From Candidatus Enterovibrio escicola (lineage in GTDB: Bacteria > Pseudomonadota > Gammaproteobacteria > Enterobacterales > Vibrionaceae), in assembly GCF_002464935.1 (NCBI RefSeq), contig NZ_NBYY01000036.1, forward strand, positions 1-64,000: DNA of 64,000 nucleotides. The letters run 5' to 3'. Both the position numbers and the translations under genes were made by a program. Below the pieces are notes generated by a model that was given only the letters and a program-made list of their open reading frames with translations, was not told the origin of the DNA and did no database searches. Shown here piece by piece: positions 53,231 through 63,639 of this stretch; positions within the stretch are counted from its first letter, which is position 1; each line of letters begins with the position of its first letter.

Positions 53231-53786
53231 ATGAAATGTGGTTACGCACGAATATCAACTCAAGATCAAGACACCCAAGTACAGGTAGCAGCGCTCAAGA
53301 GCGCTGGGTGCAAACTGGTCTTCGAGGAACAAGCCTCTGGCGGCCGCTCTGGAATCGACCTGAGTTACACCGTCTGCTTGAGCAATTGCGCCTCGGTGAT
53401 ACGGTGGTAGTTTGGAAACTAGACCGACTATCGCGGTCGTTAAAAGATTTACTAACAATCTTAGAAAAATAGAAATTGCTGGAGCGACCTTTTTGAGTCT
53501 CACAGAATCAATCGATACCTAAGCCCCTGCTGGACGTATGATGATGCAGATAGTGGGTTCGTTTGCTGAATTTGAACGAGCTATGCTTCGAGAACGTACA
53601 AAAAATGGTCTAGATGCCGCCAGAAAAGAAGGGCGAGTTGGTGGGTGTCGGCCGAAACTAACCAAACAACAGCAAGACGAAATAGTCTCATTGGTTACGT
53701 CTGGTAAAAAAACAGGCGCTAATGCGGCCAGGTTGTTTCAAGTACATCCGTCTACAGTTAGTCGTCTTTTAGCAAAAGACAAATAA
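53231..53786 (+). pseudogene. tnpR: Tn3-family resolvase TnpR, frameshifted
   Basis: Three segments in three frames: KCGYARISTQDQDTQVQVAALKSAGCKLVFEEQASGGRSG (from ATG 53231; the catalytic Ser is in YARIS), RPELHRLLEQLRLGDTVVVWKLDRLSRSLKDLLTILEK (to 53472), and IEIAGATFLSLTESIDT-stop-APAGRMMMQIVGSFAEFERAMLRERTKNGLDAARKEGRVGGCRPKLTKQQQDEIVSLVTSGKKTGANAARLFQVHPSTVSRLLAKDK (to 53786). Two frameshifts (near 53355 and in the A-run at 53464) and one TAA. The helix-turn-helix end is intact. Confidence 0.88.
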
Positions 53787-56148: not shown

Positions 56149-57606
56149 TTAAGAGTTGTATTGCCTACACTCGCCACTTTGTTTCATTAATCCACATTTA
56201 ATAATCATATATGAACGTTGATATTCGTCATTATATGGAAAGGCTTCCGCCAACTTAGTATATTCTCTAAACGCCTCAACTTTGCGGTTACTGTTGTAAA
56301 GTGACCATGCCTTAATTTCGGTCAATTTTATATCTTTCCCGTATTTTTTTATATACTCATCAATATGATAGACAGTGGTAGCAAATGTCTCAGCCTCAAA
56401 TGCGTTATAAATATGTTTTAGAGCAATCTTTTTGCCTATCGCCCCGCGTATCTTTTCACTATCAATCTGCATTGCGTGCACTTGTGCTTTATTTGAGAAC
56501 CCTGATTTTTCTAACGATAACACATAACCATATTGGATTAAATCCCATTCAGGATCGCTAGGGGACATCAAACTCACTGCAATTTCAAATTCTATCACTG
56601 CTGACATTGGGCGTTCTAATTCATATAACTTCCATCCTTTCAATGCATAATCAGATGCAGTGAATGATTGATGTTTATCTAACATTTTTAAACAGTGAGC
56701 GGCAGATTTTTTACAAGACAAGTCATCTTTTGCACCAGTATCAAAATCCATCGACACGATAGATGGGTATTTTTCTGACCATTTTGTAAGGTTTAAATCC
56801 AACTGTTCCCATTTCTCCATCCTTTCAAGACTCAGCAGTTTTCCTTCGATGCGCTTAGCAGTGGCCCCCGACCAATCAATCGAGTGCTCAAACCATTCAA
56901 CAGCATTCTCAGCATCATCATTATTTAGAAATTTCCATCCAATTAATTCTGCAGATTTTGCATCCTTATCCTTTAACACAGATTTTCCAATTCGATGTAA
57001 TTCACGGTTTGAAACCGAATATTTAGCAAGCCGAGCAAGCGCAATATCGCGTTCCATTTTTTCACCTTTCTCTGGGTCATAACCGTCAGAACCTCGATAT
57101 AGACTTAGAATATCTCTCGATGCACGGTGACTGGACCATGTTATCAACTTTTGGGTGGTGCTCAATTCGTGTCCTATACAGTCGTTCAATATAAGTTGAT
57201 ATTTTTCTTTGGCAAGAGGTCCATAGCCAGTAGATACTTCATTTTGTAAATCAAGCCATACCCACTGAATTCGTGCGCAATTCGACCACTCAGGATATTG
57301 GCTAATCAGCTCATTACTATCTATATAGTGTCCATTTTTTACGTAAGATGTTAATAGAGATAATGATTTCTGATATTTAATTTCCTTGGTAAGGTTAGGT
57401 GAAACATCTAACTCGGATACTGCGGATTGAGCCGCTTTCCAACCGTGTTCATTGAGTACCACCCAATACGGTGATTCATCAAATTCAGTTCTCACTTCGT
57501 TCGACAACTCAATTACGATACGGTCATCAAACACAGTAACTTCATCATGTTCTTGAGTGGAGACAGACGTAGCAAATATAACCGAGAGTAATATTGTTTT
57601 GTTCAT
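56149..57606 (-). CDS. TPR-like periplasmic protein of the cellulose operon (BcsK-like)
   Basis: A 485-residue, mostly alpha-helical protein with a short N-terminal hydrophobic segment (MNKTILLSVIFATSVST), probably a signal peptide. Repeated helix pairs such as AENAVEWFEHSI, YALKGWKLYELERPMSAVIEFEIAV and IKAWSLYNSNRKVEAFREYTKLAEAFP fit TPR repeats spread over residues 170-470. It occupies the place of BcsC, but BcsC is over 1,000 residues and ends in an outer-membrane barrel, which is absent here. In type III cellulose operons a TPR protein, BcsK, follows bcsZ; this protein fits that role. Its ATG overlaps the bcsZ stop by four bases. It ends at a normal stop, with no barrel remnant downstream. 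Confidence 0.65.
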   Translation of the reverse strand: MNKTILLSVIFATSVSTQEHDEVTVFDDRIVIELSNEVRTEFDESPYWVVLNEHGWKAAQSAVSELDVSPNLTKEIKYQKSLSLLTSYVKNGHYIDSNELISQYPEWSNCARIQWVWLDLQNEVSTGYGPLAKEKYQLILNDCIGHELSTTQKLITWSSHRASRDILSLYRGSDGYDPEKGEKMERDIALARLAKYSVSNRELHRIGKSVLKDKDAKSAELIGWKFLNNDDAENAVEWFEHSIDWSGATAKRIEGKLLSLERMEKWEQLDLNLTKWSEKYPSIVSMDFDTGAKDDLSCKKSAAHCLKMLDKHQSFTASDYALKGWKLYELERPMSAVIEFEIAVSLMSPSDPEWDLIQYGYVLSLEKSGFSNKAQVHAMQIDSEKIRGAIGKKIALKHIYNAFEAETFATTVYHIDEYIKKYGKDIKLTEIKAWSLYNSNRKVEAFREYTKLAEAFPYNDEYQRSYMIIKCGLMKQSGECRQYNS

Positions 57607-58622
57607 TCACAAATCCCTTCGTTAAATGCCATATGTGATAGCAGTACTAAGCTATCTGAGTAGTAATCTTTCCCTTTAGGCACGAAAGAGATCCCCTCAC
57701 CTTTAATGCGATCTCCCTTAGCCAACGAAACAAGTTGGGCGACAGCTCTTGCACCCTCTGGTGGAGGGTAAAATGCTTGCTCTCCCGATGTCACATTCGT
57801 CCATGCCACATTTTTTGTTTTAAGCCATTTAACATAATTATCATTGATTTGATGTGATTTTTTCCCCCAAACAACGTAGAGTGGAATGCGGTAGCTGGAA
57901 TAACTAAAATGTGGAGGGAAGTCACTGGCTGGTCGCCAATGACGATTAGCATACTCTATCCAATCTGGCGTGAGACCATCTCTTCCGTATAGGTTATGAT
58001 TCAAGATGGATAAACCACTTTTTGACAACAATGCCCACTGATTACTGTAGCTTGAAAAGACATCCATTGCAGGATACACCCAATAGCTCGGATTCAGAAT
58101 CGTTCTATTATTAAAGGAGAACCCCACAGTCCCTGGCAATAACACTGTTTCACCATTTAGCAACTTAACATGTGATGCTTGCAGAGCAAAAACGATGCTT
58201 CTTGCCGCTTTATCATATCCTTTGGACGGCCACTTCTCTGATGCGCGATGTAAAGCCCACGCGATTAGCAAATCACCATCACTCGCATTGTTGTGATCTG
58301 GGATATGTGGCCTTTTCGGTTGCCATTTCCACGAGAAAAGAGGATCTTCATCTCGCTGCAAGTTCAATCTTGTCCAACGCCAAAGACGTTGAAAAGTACG
58401 ACTGTCACTGTAATATTCCGCCATTAACATACCGTACCCTTGCCCTTCACTATGAGAAATACGTCGGTTAGCGTTATCGATCACCCGTCCATCTAGGCTG
58501 ATGAAGCTTTTCTTAAACAGATCCCACATCCACACATCACTATTACAGTTAGATATTGCATGGCTACTGCTATTTAGCACGATTGCAAAAACACTAAGCA
58601 TCATCATGATCGGTGTTTTCAT
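57603..58622 (-). CDS. bcsZ: Periplasmic endo-1,4-beta-glucanase, GH8 (cellulose synthase complex)
   Basis: A 339-residue secreted glycoside hydrolase family 8 enzyme. The signal peptide is MKTPIMMMLSVFAIVLNSSSHA. The acid catalyst Glu59 lies in RRISHSEGQGYGM, and NNASDGDLLIAWAL (Asp115, Asp117) is the second GH8 signature. YWVYPAMDVF and the DGLTPDW block are also typical. It trims cellulose chains during export and is needed for full synthesis in other bacteria. ATG 58622 is chosen: GGAGG lies seven bases upstream and the codon overlaps the bcsB stop as ATGA; an upstream frame extension (MVVVCYCF...) is rejected. It overlaps the next gene by four bases. Confidence 0.92.
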   Translation of the reverse strand: MKTPIMMMLSVFAIVLNSSSHAISNCNSDVWMWDLFKKSFISLDGRVIDNANRRISHSEGQGYGMLMAEYYSDSRTFQRLWRWTRLNLQRDEDPLFSWKWQPKRPHIPDHNNASDGDLLIAWALHRASEKWPSKGYDKAARSIVFALQASHVKLLNGETVLLPGTVGFSFNNRTILNPSYWVYPAMDVFSSYSNQWALLSKSGLSILNHNLYGRDGLTPDWIEYANRHWRPASDFPPHFSYSSYRIPLYVVWGKKSHQINDNYVKWLKTKNVAWTNVTSGEQAFYPPPEGARAVAQLVSLAKGDRIKGEGISFVPKGKDYYSDSLVLLSHMAFNEGICE

Positions 58623-60622
58623 TTGCGAGCCTCCAATGAACGAGAAACAATAGCAGACAACCACCAAATAATGATCAATGCAATGATTGATAATCCTGCT
58701 GGGTATCCAATAAACGCTGCTTTAATAACTTGTGATGTACTGCTTGAAAAATCCCGTTCACTGAGTACACCCGCTGGTGGGCTATGAGCTTCACTACGTA
58801 AGAATTCATTAAACTTTTCTTGATTTACCTCCGTAAATTGAATTCGATACCAACCCTTTTCATTGGTATGTATGACATTGGCAATAGTATGAATCTGATT
58901 GTCGAATGGCATATCAGTATCTATGTGTGATTCATCATTTGGTGCCACAACAAATTCAAATAACTTTTGTTTTAATGACGCCCATTGGGATCGGTTAATA
59001 GGTTCAGCAGAATGCTGCTTGTTCAGCATAATCTGCTTCATCGAAACATGAAAAGTTCGATGTTGCTTGGTATCAATAGTCACCATCAGACACGGTATCG
59101 ATTTTTGCGTAAGATGCGAGACATGACTTAGCAGGCGCCAGAGATTTGCAAGTTGTATTGAATCGTTGATATCAACCGTAATTTGCGTCTGTTTACCACA
59201 ATCATCAGCAATCGCCAAAAAATCTTGCGGTGAAACATGGTGGTCTTCAGTGGGGATAAATTTCACCCATGAACTGAGTTTTAGATTCGATCTATCGGAC
59301 ATATACACCGAAAAGCGACGTTGCTGATTAAGAATATCGACTGGGCCATAAACTTCCACCGTCACGAGGTTCACCCCAGATTTAAAATCTCGCATTGGGA
59401 TATTCAAACGATAGTGTTGCGTATCACGCCAATAACTCGAGCGTAACGGTAGACTATTCGCGTATTTTCCATTAACCCTAAGGATCATTGATCCTGCTCC
59501 AGGAGCAACGTGGGAATGGGTTAGGAGGAGATTTATTTTAGCATTGTCTTCACGGCTAAATAGGATGTTACTTGGCATGACTAAGCTCAACTCAAGTGGT
59601 TCATCCGTCAATTCTGTCTGATCAGTGAAGTCTGATAGTGGGTAGATTGAATTGCTTTTTAACGAATAATCAACGATGTCATCATCCTTAATTACCACCA
59701 TAAATTTCCTTTCTGGTAAACGACTTATATCGTTCGCAAAAATCGTTGATGCACGTTCTACTTCTCTATCATTTTTACCCGAAACAACCAACACCCATTC
59801 AACACCTTCGACAATATTTCCCATACCAATGTATGGTCCTGAGATGTTATCGAACGTCGCCTCATCAATCCAACCTGCATTCACCAATGCATCTTTGACA
59901 CCATACACAATCACGGTACCTGACAGTGGCGCTTGGTAAAGCGACAGTTGCTTGCTGTATTCTGATATATGGCGATAATCAAATACGTGCTCTTCCGAGC
60001 CACTTTTCAACGTCCAACCTTGAACCAGAGATGCAGCAATGCTGAGCGATAAATCTGTATTCTCACTGGATATGGAAATTAAATGTATTGTGTCATCATG
60101 TCGTTGACCGCTTCGGACCATTTTATCGAATGACGATAGCGTTTGGTTATCAGTATTATCGCTAGCCACATAGTTCAATTCATAAAATGATTCTTTTACG
60201 TTGATAATGGTATTCAGTTCTGTCGTATCAATAACCAATCTGGAATCATCCGACAAATGTTGGATACGAAAACTTAGCGTCGGATCTTGCTTCGAAAGAA
60301 GGCTTGGTGGTATCGTTGCTTCGATGTACTGGTAGTGACTTCGTTGTTTCATTTCAACGTTTGCCAACGAGCGAGTACCTGCTGCTATCCAAAGCACCGT
60401 TCTGTCAATGATGTTATCATTGTATATCGCCAGCAATAACCGAACACTTTCGACTTCCTGTCCCTCTAAAATTGAAATAGGCATGGAGACTGTCTGACTT
60501 TGACCACGCAACACGATGTCTTCCTTACTATCTGTTGCATATGTCAGTGGCACTTTTACCGATTTTTGAGCCTGCACAGAACAAACGATTATGAGAAAAA
60601 GTGATGCCATGAATTTAATCAT
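58619..60622 (-). CDS. bcsB: Cellulose synthase subunit BcsB, periplasmic
   Basis: A 667-residue protein with a signal peptide (MIKFMASLFLIIVCSVQA) and one C-terminal membrane anchor (AGLSIIALIIIWWLSAIVSRSLEARK), the BcsB topology. Between them are repeated carbohydrate-binding and flavodoxin-like modules: YIEATIPPSLL, LSLVMPSNILFSREDNAKINLLLTHSHVAPGAGSMILRVNGKYANSLPL, and FKSGVNLVTVEVYGP. BcsB guides the nascent glucan through the periplasm and contacts BcsA through its tail anchor. It is about 100 residues shorter than E. coli BcsB (779 aa) without an obvious break. Its start overlaps the bcsA end by eight bases, indicating translational coupling. Confidence 0.9.
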   Translation of the reverse strand: MIKFMASLFLIIVCSVQAQKSVKVPLTYATDSKEDIVLRGQSQTVSMPISILEGQEVESVRLLLAIYNDNIIDRTVLWIAAGTRSLANVEMKQRSHYQYIEATIPPSLLSKQDPTLSFRIQHLSDDSRLVIDTTELNTIINVKESFYELNYVASDNTDNQTLSSFDKMVRSGQRHDDTIHLISISSENTDLSLSIAASLVQGWTLKSGSEEHVFDYRHISEYSKQLSLYQAPLSGTVIVYGVKDALVNAGWIDEATFDNISGPYIGMGNIVEGVEWVLVVSGKNDREVERASTIFANDISRLPERKFMVVIKDDDIVDYSLKSNSIYPLSDFTDQTELTDEPLELSLVMPSNILFSREDNAKINLLLTHSHVAPGAGSMILRVNGKYANSLPLRSSYWRDTQHYRLNIPMRDFKSGVNLVTVEVYGPVDILNQQRRFSVYMSDRSNLKLSSWVKFIPTEDHHVSPQDFLAIADDCGKQTQITVDINDSIQLANLWRLLSHVSHLTQKSIPCLMVTIDTKQHRTFHVSMKQIMLNKQHSAEPINRSQWASLKQKLFEFVVAPNDESHIDTDMPFDNQIHTIANVIHTNEKGWYRIQFTEVNQEKFNEFLRSEAHSPPAGVLSERDFSSSTSQVIKAAFIGYPAGLSIIALIIIWWLSAIVSRSLEARK

Positions 60623-62837
60623 TCTGGAACTCCTTTTTGTCCTTAACAGGGATCGTTTTCAATCTGTTCCTGACTGAGGTTGTTAACACCCGTGAAAGAT
60701 TTTCACAAGCCAACGAAAAAAGATCCAACGCAGAGGAAAGAATATTTTGATTTAAGCTTTCTTCATAACGTCTACGTTTCTTCCAACGACTGCTCTGTCC
60801 GTAGGCTTTTGTATACTGAATCTGCATATCTGACGCCAGATTGCTTTCCAATAAACAGTATATTTGAGCTCCATGACGACCATTTTTCAATGCAACTACT
60901 CTCATATTAAGATGTACACGTTGATAGAGTGGTTTTTTTGTTTTGGTACTCTTTCCTTTTTCAGTGAAATACACCACATTCACAATATCGCCTTGGCGTA
61001 TACCATGCTCTCCTTCGTGAAGCGTGAGCTGTGCTCCTTTTAATGAAATGTCATTTAACGTCGCTTGGAAACTCATGTTTTCTATCTTTATCACCGCTTT
61101 TTCATTTACTAACAAACGTGGTTCACTTCGTCGTTGCTGTTTTTCAAGCATGGCACCTAAGCAAAGAATAATGAGAATGATGTTAAATGTATTAAAGATG
61201 ATGACGAGAATGAGTTGACTCTGCTCCGTGGGAAACTGAATATAACGATATATTCCCCACGCTTCTGCTAACAAAACTAAACCGAAAATAAATGCCATAA
61301 ACGGGGTTAGTTTTGAAAAACACACTTGCTTCGTTGTTTCCCCCTTGGGTGTAACAACAAAACTGGGTTTCGTAGGGTTCACTAGCACTGATAGCGTAGG
61401 CAAAAACAGATAAATAGATAGCGCTGTTTCATAAAGTTCAGAAAAGAATGCACGCCGTGTTCCACCAAACAATCGCTGTGTTATCATCACACTGGTAACT
61501 AAATGAGGCATTACAAAGATCAGGAAGTCTGTTACATTTCCGACGAATATCTGCAAATCGAGCAACAGGTATAACAACGGAGAAATCAAAAAGATCGTTC
61601 TGAAAATAGGAAAGAACCAGTACACAGTCGAGTTAAAATAGCAAAGGCGTTGTCCTAAACTAAGACCGCGTTTCAGAAGTGGATTGTTGAGTAAGAATAT
61701 TTGGATCATACCTTGAGCCCAACGAGAACGTTGCGTGACATAAGCACCAAATGTATCCGGCGATAGCCCTGCTACCATGGCAATATTAAGGTAGCCACTA
61801 TCCCATCCTTTTGAGTGGATGTTTAAGGCAGTATCTGCATCTTCCGTGATAGTTCTTGTCGAGATCCCTCCTACTTCCTCTAATGCGGTTCTGCGTAACA
61901 CCGCCGCCGAACCACAGAAGAAGCACCCGTTCCAGGAATCCATCCCAAGTAGAATTTTGTTATAGAACATTTCATTTTCAGAAGGAACTTTATCTTCAAT
62001 ACCGAGGTTCCTCTCAACTGGACCTGGGGTAACAAAGAAATGTGGCGTTTGGATGAAACCGAGATTGGGATGTCTTTGAAAGAGTCCAATAGTATTCATC
62101 AGAAAGTCACGTGTTGGAACATGATCAGCATCAAGTATAAGAATCAAATCACCAGATGTTTTTTTTAATGCATGGTTTATATTTCCTGCTTTTGCATGCT
62201 CATTTTTTTCACGTGTAATATAGCTTGCTTTTACCTCTTTGCAGAAGATTTTTAGGGTGTCCGCACGACGTTTAGCCGTGGCAGAAACATCAATATCATG
62301 GTGTTGCAATTTCTGGTATGTCCCCCCATCATCGAGAACATACACACGGAACTCACCGATATAATCCATGCGAGCAGCAGCTAAAATCGTTGGCTCTACC
62401 ACATCAATTGGTTCGTTGTACGTCGGAATATAAATATCGACTGACGGCAGGGGAGCATTAGTATCAATGGGGATTCGTTTACGTTCATATGGTTTTACCG
62501 TAACGAACATACCTAATACATAAATCATGATGCCATAGCATTCCGCCGCAAACAGAAATAGTGCGAACGGTAAGTCTAATTGACTTTCCCAAGGCAATGT
62601 TTCCTGAAACCGCCAATAAATATATCGAAATGATATGAAGGCTCCAATAATTAATATGAAGGCAGTGGCTCTCGTTGAATAATTTTTTGATAGCAAAATA
62701 ATAAAAAGGAAAGCGCTTGCAGCCAACCAAATATGTGTGTCTATCGATATGTTTAGTGTTGCCAACATAAATAGACTATAAATAGCACAAAAAACTAACA
62801 ACAATTTAATTAACCGTTTTAGCAAGTTAGGATCCAT
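60615..62837 (-). CDS. bcsA: Cellulose synthase catalytic subunit (GT2 with PilZ domain)
   Basis: 740 residues. Membrane helices occupy about 10-115. The GT2 domain shows DDG (169-171), DAD (236-238, the UDP/Mg motif), FFCGS (306-310), TED (331-333, catalytic base) and QRSRW (369-373, acceptor site). The gating-loop block FVVTPKG lies at 493-499. The C-terminal PilZ domain has RRSEPR (569-574) and DISLKG (596-601), the complete RxxxR and DxSxxG c-di-GMP signature. It therefore should polymerise UDP-glucose in a c-di-GMP-dependent way. ATG 62837 is preceded by GGAGGG with correct spacing and lies one base after the lipoprotein stop; the longer frame to 62918 is rejected. Every catalytic motif is intact. 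Confidence 0.96.
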   Translation of the reverse strand: MDPNLLKRLIKLLLVFCAIYSLFMLATLNISIDTHIWLAASAFLFIILLSKNYSTRATAFILIIGAFISFRYIYWRFQETLPWESQLDLPFALFLFAAECYGIMIYVLGMFVTVKPYERKRIPIDTNAPLPSVDIYIPTYNEPIDVVEPTILAAARMDYIGEFRVYVLDDGGTYQKLQHHDIDVSATAKRRADTLKIFCKEVKASYITREKNEHAKAGNINHALKKTSGDLILILDADHVPTRDFLMNTIGLFQRHPNLGFIQTPHFFVTPGPVERNLGIEDKVPSENEMFYNKILLGMDSWNGCFFCGSAAVLRRTALEEVGGISTRTITEDADTALNIHSKGWDSGYLNIAMVAGLSPDTFGAYVTQRSRWAQGMIQIFLLNNPLLKRGLSLGQRLCYFNSTVYWFFPIFRTIFLISPLLYLLLDLQIFVGNVTDFLIFVMPHLVTSVMITQRLFGGTRRAFFSELYETALSIYLFLPTLSVLVNPTKPSFVVTPKGETTKQVCFSKLTPFMAFIFGLVLLAEAWGIYRYIQFPTEQSQLILVIIFNTFNIILIILCLGAMLEKQQRRSEPRLLVNEKAVIKIENMSFQATLNDISLKGAQLTLHEGEHGIRQGDIVNVVYFTEKGKSTKTKKPLYQRVHLNMRVVALKNGRHGAQIYCLLESNLASDMQIQYTKAYGQSSRWKKRRRYEESLNQNILSSALDLFSLACENLSRVLTTSVRNRLKTIPVKDKKEFQND

Positions 62838-62838
62838 A

Positions 62839-63360
62839 TCAAAATCCCTCCAGCAATAGAGAGGGCTTAAATTTATTAATCCAAGAAAATTTTTGTTCCT
62901 GATCGGAAGTACAGACATTGGTAAAGATTGTAAGCCAATAATTATCTTGTCGGGAATTCTGACGAGAAATAAAACACCGCTCTCCCGTTTCCATCACCTT
63001 GATCCATTGCTGATAAGGACCTATGAAGTTATGGAAATACTGACCCTTTTGAGTTGGGACAGTGAATGAAAACATTTTTGGAGGTTGCTTAAAAGGAGAC
63101 GGACTGATAATTTGAATAACAAGATTTTCACTAGGCAGGTACGTGTTATTTTCAAGCTGAGTCCAAAACCACGTTTCTTCACCTCGTGATTGTCGGAAAC
63201 TTTTTACAGTGTCTAATCCGTCAATCAACGCAGGGAGTTGGTAGGTATCGATTTCAGTCGGGTCATAGATTTGTTGATGATGGGCTTGCTGTAATAGTTT
63301 GCAACCCGATATAACAAATAAACCACTCAACAATATTACCCTCGATAGAATCACTGTCAT
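62839..63360 (-). CDS. Predicted lipoprotein, first gene of the cellulose operon
   Basis: A 173-residue protein with a lipoprotein signal (MTVILSRVILLSGLFVISGC; lipobox VISGC, Cys20). Ser/Lys-type +2 residue is Lys, so sorting to the outer membrane is likely. The mature part is polar (ETWFWTQLENNTYLPSENLVIQIISPSP, GERCFISRQNSRQDNYWLTIFTNVCTSDQEQKFSW) with two Cys that could form a disulfide. I do not recognise a named Bcs family. It begins behind AGAGGT and ends one base before bcsA, so it is co-translated with the synthase and is probably an export or envelope-anchoring accessory. Confidence 0.7.
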   Translation of the reverse strand: MTVILSRVILLSGLFVISGCKLLQQAHHQQIYDPTEIDTYQLPALIDGLDTVKSFRQSRGEETWFWTQLENNTYLPSENLVIQIISPSPFKQPPKMFSFTVPTQKGQYFHNFIGPYQQWIKVMETGERCFISRQNSRQDNYWLTIFTNVCTSDQEQKFSWINKFKPSLLLEGF

Positions 63361-63401: not shown

Positions 63402-63417
63402 AGCAATAAGTTTGCCA
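63402..63417 (-). promoter_or_regulatory. Sigma-54-type promoter candidate for the cellulose operon
   Basis: The minus strand reads TGGCAAACTTATTGCT. The sigma-54 consensus is TGGCAC-N5-TTGC(A/T); only the sixth base differs. The essential GG (63416-63415) and GC (63404-63403) are ten bases apart, as required. Predicted transcription would start near 63391, leaving a leader of about 30 bases before the lipoprotein ATG. Enhancer binding sites were not identified; the upstream DNA to 63600 is AT-rich. Confidence 0.5.
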
Positions 63418-63639
63418 TCTATAATATGTGGCATTTTAAATAATATTTTCAATGAGTTAATGGATTTTAGTTATGTACAATTCCGTATTTCTATGAAAAA
63501 AAATCACTGCCCCACACTATTCTTAATATGACAATGAATATGATAATAAAATGGAGAATAGAAACAGAAACTATTCAAAATGATATATTTCTTTATAGAA
63601 AATAAAGATATATAGAATTATTTTCTAAACGTTGGATAA

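Follow-up and report, generated by a model that had tools for sequence, protein, structure and literature searches.

A putative type III cellulose operon with a BcsK homologue in place of BcsC in the anglerfish symbiont Candidatus Enterovibrio escacola, and a proposed export route

How cellulose crosses the outer membrane of bacteria that lack BcsC is an open question in the field, and it is raised by a compact cellulose operon in Candidatus Enterovibrio escacola MJ02, the luminous bacterium that lives in symbiosis with the anglerfish Melanocetus johnsonii (PMC6020299). The source genome comprises 2,645,619 bp in 39 contigs and shows extensive decay: 974 pseudogenes and 921 transposable-element genes have been reported for it (PMC6020299). 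An initial annotation had recognized a Vibrionaceae-like, decaying genome from the letters of one stretch of 64,000 nucleotides, hereafter the window, and the source, a Vibrionaceae symbiont in decay, bore this out (PMC6020299). Open reading frames (ORFs) of at least 150 aa cover 31% of window positions 1-56100 and 100% of the operon, the corresponding coverage in the loci of relatives being 83-91%. A resolvase/invertase-like gene at 53236-53786 is divided over two ORFs and is apparently a pseudogene.

The operon occupies window positions 56149-63360 on the minus strand, and consists of five intact, tightly packed genes. The first encodes a bcsN-like lipoprotein (62839..63360; 173 aa, lipobox VISGC) that is conserved in 16 loci. 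It is followed by bcsA, encoding the cellulose synthase catalytic subunit with a PilZ domain (60615..62837; 740 aa with the start at 62837, set from the start common to relatives; TIGR03030, E 7e-264; PilZ, PF07238), bcsB, encoding the periplasmic co-polymerase (58619..60622; 667 aa; PF03170, E 8e-11), bcsZ, encoding a GH8 endoglucanase (57603..58622; 339 aa; PF01270, E 1.5e-66), and a gene for a periplasmic TPR scaffold without a barrel (56149..57606; 485 aa), designated bcsK from its hhalign match to rhizobial BcsK. The lipoprotein stop and the bcsA start lie one base apart, and the remaining junctions (bcsA-bcsB, bcsB-bcsZ and bcsZ-TPR gene) overlap by 8, 4 and 4 bases, so that the ORFs confirm the order and tight spacing first described. 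All five operon ORFs could be assigned and none is BcsD, BcsE, BcsF, BcsG or BcsQ, as the initial annotation had stated for this operon. Its claim of intact catalytic and c-di-GMP motifs was confirmed for BcsA by a motif check, in which DDGG, DAD, FFCGS, TED, QRSRW, RSEPR (PilZ) and DISLKG were all present. BcsZ, BcsB and the TPR protein carry signal-peptide-like N-termini, and no Pfam or NCBIfam family exceeded its cut-off for the TPR protein or the lipoprotein. Our preferred reading, which we hold with good though not complete confidence, is that these genes (bcsN-like, bcsA, bcsB, bcsZ and bcsK) form an inherited type III cellulose operon, for which an export route is proposed below.

The TPR protein, the lipoprotein and the barrel

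The initial annotation had suggested comparing the TPR protein with both BcsC and BcsK, and the comparison favored BcsK. By hhalign, the window TPR family matched rhizobial BcsK with P 99.7 and a score of 214 over 417 columns, against maxima of 28 in column-shuffle and 54 in block-shuffle controls. The Rhodobacterales K protein was matched with P 98.4, whereas the TPR half of BcsC reached only P 18.6, over 37 columns. Consistently, blastp against a small database matched the window protein to the last gene of alphaproteobacterial bcsN-A-B-Z-K clusters with E 1.6e-11. The predicted structure is helical throughout, without a barrel (mean pLDDT 81); a fold search with this model returned generic TPR proteins, BcsC and AlgK not being among the matches listed, and a sequence search of the PDB with the TPR protein and the lipoprotein gave nothing useful. 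These profile comparisons identify the TPR protein as a BcsK homologue that is not specifically BcsC-like.

The lipoprotein occupies the place of BcsN at the head of the operon. A profile of the sixteen Vibrionaceae lipoproteins matched rhizobial BcsN with P 89.7 and a score of 49.4 over 140 columns; shuffled controls reached at most 20 and 32, and unrelated profiles scored 11-22. The curated Pfam BcsN model (PF17038) gave no hit to the lipoprotein at E up to 1. The structural model is weak (mean pLDDT 66), and no match in its fold search reached E 0.001. The protein is probably a distant BcsN homologue, the homology being moderate, and is referred to as BcsN-like.

The absence of BcsC, also claimed at the outset, held for the entire genome. 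The BcsC barrel model PF05420 had no match in the whole symbiont genome, with E. coli as positive control, and a second barrel profile, derived from the distant fusion proteins described below, likewise had none, with genome G257 as positive control. PF05420 was absent from all 17 congeners searched, and the window TPR protein itself has no BCSC_C β-barrel at its C-terminus, where no Pfam hit was obtained and the model remains all-helical to the end. A search of eleven type III Vibrionaceae genomes with the fusion-barrel profile also detected no BcsC-like barrel, a result that would suit a system in which the glucan needs no outer-membrane barrel, either staying periplasmic or leaving through an exit formed by BcsK and BcsN. 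A subset of alphaproteobacteria has lost BcsC, and their export has been called a likely novel mechanism (PMC7112194), which points the same way. We nonetheless regard a barrel-free route as improbable: cellulose is found outside the cell in alphaproteobacteria with bcsN-A-B-K (PMC9012009, PMC6559018), the structure predicted for BcsK is a simple helical solenoid that lacks a barrel, and there are proteins in which BcsK-like TPRs are joined to one.

Distribution of the cassette and origin of the TPR gene

A survey of 237 Vibrionaceae genomes found BcsA in 52 and the TPR gene in 14. A short BcsA lies near the TPR gene in all 14 (in E. nigricans on a separate small contig), and full BcsC is missing from 11 of them: none of the six Enterovibrio genomes has it, and three of the eight Vibrio-like genomes hold a separate BcsC operon in addition. 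The comparison with relatives recovered the same barrel-less cassette in five free-living Enterovibrio, eight Vibrio-like genomes and V. penaeicida, a distribution that speaks for inheritance of the cassette and against its having arisen through decay. Its gene order is constant in every case while the flanking genes vary between lineages, so that the five genes appear to constitute a whole unit. In BcsA trees, computed in a quick and a careful version with some long branches flagged by the program, the BcsA proteins of the Vibrionaceae cassettes, the alphaproteobacterial type III operons and the fusion operons grouped against the BcsC-type proteins with support 100/100.

Two loci show further rearrangements. 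In Vibrio penaeicida (L015:2-10458 and L019:1-10458), the complete cassette is directly preceded by another bcsZ-bcsK pair, which suggests a tandem duplication of the operon. In Enterovibrio coralii (L013:4138-6359), bcsA is divided between two overlapping frames of 376 and 364 aa, a frameshift either in the strain or in the assembly.

A TPR gene that continues into a barrel in a relative had been named as evidence against a type III reading. None of the 16 close loci shows this arrangement; four distant gammaproteobacteria, found with the BcsK profile, do. In these, bcsA-bcsB-bcsZ is followed by a TPR-barrel fusion of 870-1,086 aa (L130:7288-10506, L131:8120-10732, L132:3169-6003 and L134:4860-8120), in which BcsK-like TPRs precede PF05420. 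The N-terminal half of the fusions matches BcsK with P 99.0 (Vibrionaceae) and 100 (rhizobia), and the C-terminal third is the PF05420 barrel (E 1e-50 to 1e-59). The weak class-level matches could have been taken for generic TPR hits, an interpretation that was rejected because four of the five genomes hold bcsA-B-Z-linked BcsK-barrel fusions. BcsA of the fusion operons falls on the type III side, adjoining the alphaproteobacterial group (98/96), with the Vibrionaceae outside. With the root placed on the BcsC side, the tree requires either two losses of the barrel or a single loss followed by a regain.

These fusions bear on whether the window TPR gene could derive from BcsC by loss of the barrel during genome decay, which would make the operon a degenerate type I or II system. 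Such an origin might be expected in a decaying genome, and a TPR-barrel fusion does occupy the same operon place in distant gammaproteobacteria; yet free-living relatives with 5 Mb genomes carry the same barrel-less gene (483-492 aa), the TPR profile resembles BcsK far more than BcsC, and BcsA is placed apart from the BcsC-type proteins. The gene of the free-living relatives led us to reject a recent decay of BcsC, and we consider this account as a whole extremely unlikely, an ancient loss of the barrel in the whole lineage being possible. The fusions indicate a connection between BcsK and BcsC without thereby making the window gene a broken BcsC. Because BcsK-like TPRs are found fused to the BcsC barrel, BcsK can be expected to serve an outer-membrane channel; that it works with a barrel encoded elsewhere is supported but not proved.

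Judged from sequence comparisons, the window operon is therefore best described as an old, conserved gammaproteobacterial branch of the known type III system. BcsA with PilZ, BcsB, BcsK instead of BcsC, the lack of a barrel and the type III BcsA lineage were all found and together point to type III; the type III-like bcsA-bcsB-bcsZ-bcsK arrangement originally proposed gains support from the BcsK homology, the probable BcsN homologue and the BcsA grouping.

Control, proposed export route and use in the symbiont

A putative sigma-54 type -24/-12 promoter, TGGCAAACTTATTGCT (63402..63417, minus strand), lies 57 bases upstream of the first start codon. The strict motif is present at -45 to -65 in 14 of 15 distinct loci, the fifteenth being looser, with a chance expectation of about 0.2% per locus; it occurs once in the window, before the operon. 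Further upstream, at -174..-160 from the first gene, a degenerate site, TTCTTAATATGACAA (63520..63534, plus strand), may function as an enhancer. It has 2 mismatches to the V. fischeri SypG UAS motif, TTCTCANNNTGMDWN (PMC10162802). A UAS-like site with at most one mismatch is found at -174 to -190 in six of six free-living Enterovibrio and V. penaeicida loci, where about 0.1 per region would be expected by chance, and the symbiont site has eroded.

The symbiont encodes four complete sigma-54 activators. NtrC was assigned by a curated model, two are read as FlrA and FlrC from gene context, and another is LuxO/SypG-like; the name LuxO was withheld from the latter, which scored 652 against a cut-off of 800. 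Both sypF and sypG have been reported absent from E. escacola (PMC6773444). The LuxO/SypG-like gene (L129:11290-13714, contig C37) lies near glycosyltransferases and adjoins a receiver-Hpt ORF, apparently the remaining tail of a disrupted hybrid kinase. The c-di-GMP network of the symbiont is very reduced: the genome encodes only two GGDEF proteins (diguanylate cyclases; L113, C5:39654-40118, and L114, C36:2188-2670), whose GGEEF and GGDEF motifs are intact.

In the proposed route, sigma-54 RNA polymerase would transcribe the operon, and one of the two remaining diguanylate cyclases would supply c-di-GMP to the PilZ domain of BcsA. BcsA-BcsB would polymerize the glucan into the periplasm, where BcsZ would trim it. 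BcsK, as a soluble periplasmic TPR solenoid, would then guide the glucan to an outer-membrane pore encoded elsewhere, probably assisted by the outer-membrane lipoprotein BcsN. In alginate export, AlgK and AlgE are split; by analogy, BcsK, BcsN and an unlinked pore may represent a split version of BcsC.

Whether the symbiont still uses the operon can be weighed from its genes. It could be a relic, intact in sequence and already silent in the symbiont, that is used only in the free-living relatives. The two mismatches in the enhancer-like site fit such a relic, as do private changes of BcsK at conserved sites at about twice the level of relatives (17% versus 7-10%) and the other anglerfish symbiont (G004, taken as Ca. 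E. luxaltus), in which no BcsA or BcsK was detectable; private changes are also raised in BcsA. Conversely, all five frames and every catalytic motif checked are intact where the rest of the window is sparsely covered by ORFs, private changes are not in excess in BcsZ or BcsN, and evolution is faster across the whole symbiont lineage (PMC6020299). We therefore judge a relic unlikely. Intact frames in a decaying genome indicate that the operon was retained until recently. The suggestion that it was selected for host colonization stands in part: the genes are intact despite the decay, but E. luxaltus lacks a detectable BcsA or TPR gene, which leaves colonization a plausible hypothesis.

A wider scenario can be offered tentatively, and we lean somewhat against it: the Vibrionaceae may hold an old sigma-54-controlled cellulose branch, with the channel split from the scaffold, descended from a BcsK-barrel fusion ancestor. 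If this split-channel branch exists, the 2.65 Mb symbiont provides the smallest parts list for the missing pore, and cellulose is one of its very few remaining c-di-GMP outputs. The gammaproteobacterial type III set, comprising culturable Enterovibrio and Vibrio together with one reduced-genome symbiont, narrows the search for the pore by comparison, and the fusions connect BcsK with the barrel of BcsC. For the anglerfish symbiosis, the operon is a polysaccharide system that goes unmentioned in the main texts of the two genome papers, neither of which contains the word cellulose, and it distinguishes E. escacola, which has many hosts, from E. luxaltus, which has one.

Comparison with known cellulose systems

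The bcs operon types were reportedly defined by Roemling and Galperin in 2015. Leaving aside the coverage of Vibrionaceae in that classification, type III has so far been reported mainly from alphaproteobacteria. It is defined by the lack of BcsD, E and G, often with BcsK, 'periplasmic scaffolding only', replacing BcsC, and includes R. sphaeroides (PMC11470070); Shinella needs a bcsN-A-B-K cluster to form cellulose flocs (PMC9012009). The window operon resembles the type III operons of Rhodobacterales (Cereibacter sphaeroides, Alloyangia and Paracoccus), which have the order hyp-bcsA-bcsB-bcsZ-hyp without BcsC, a short putative lipoprotein first and a TPR protein of 458-470 aa last. However, their BcsK is about 22-30% identical to the window family, and their first gene matches the Vibrionaceae lipoprotein weakly (P 12.7). 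With the type III operons of Rhizobiales (bcsN-bcsA-bcsB-bcsZ-bcsK) it shares a BcsK homologous over 417 columns, probably BcsN, and the BcsA grouping, although the rhizobial BcsK (about 600-850 aa) and BcsN (311 aa in S. medicae) are longer.

The BcsC-type operons of types I and II, found in other Vibrionaceae and E. coli, have the BcsA, BcsB and BcsZ cores in common with the window but differ in a BcsC of about 1,150-1,290 aa with PF05420 and, in most, a longer BcsA of about 870-910 aa; in three Vibrio-like genomes, type III and BcsC-type systems occur together at separate loci. The BcsK-barrel fusion operons share with the window the order bcsA-bcsB-bcsZ-TPR, the BcsK-like TPRs and a type III-side BcsA, and differ from it in a TPR protein that extends into a PF05420 barrel.
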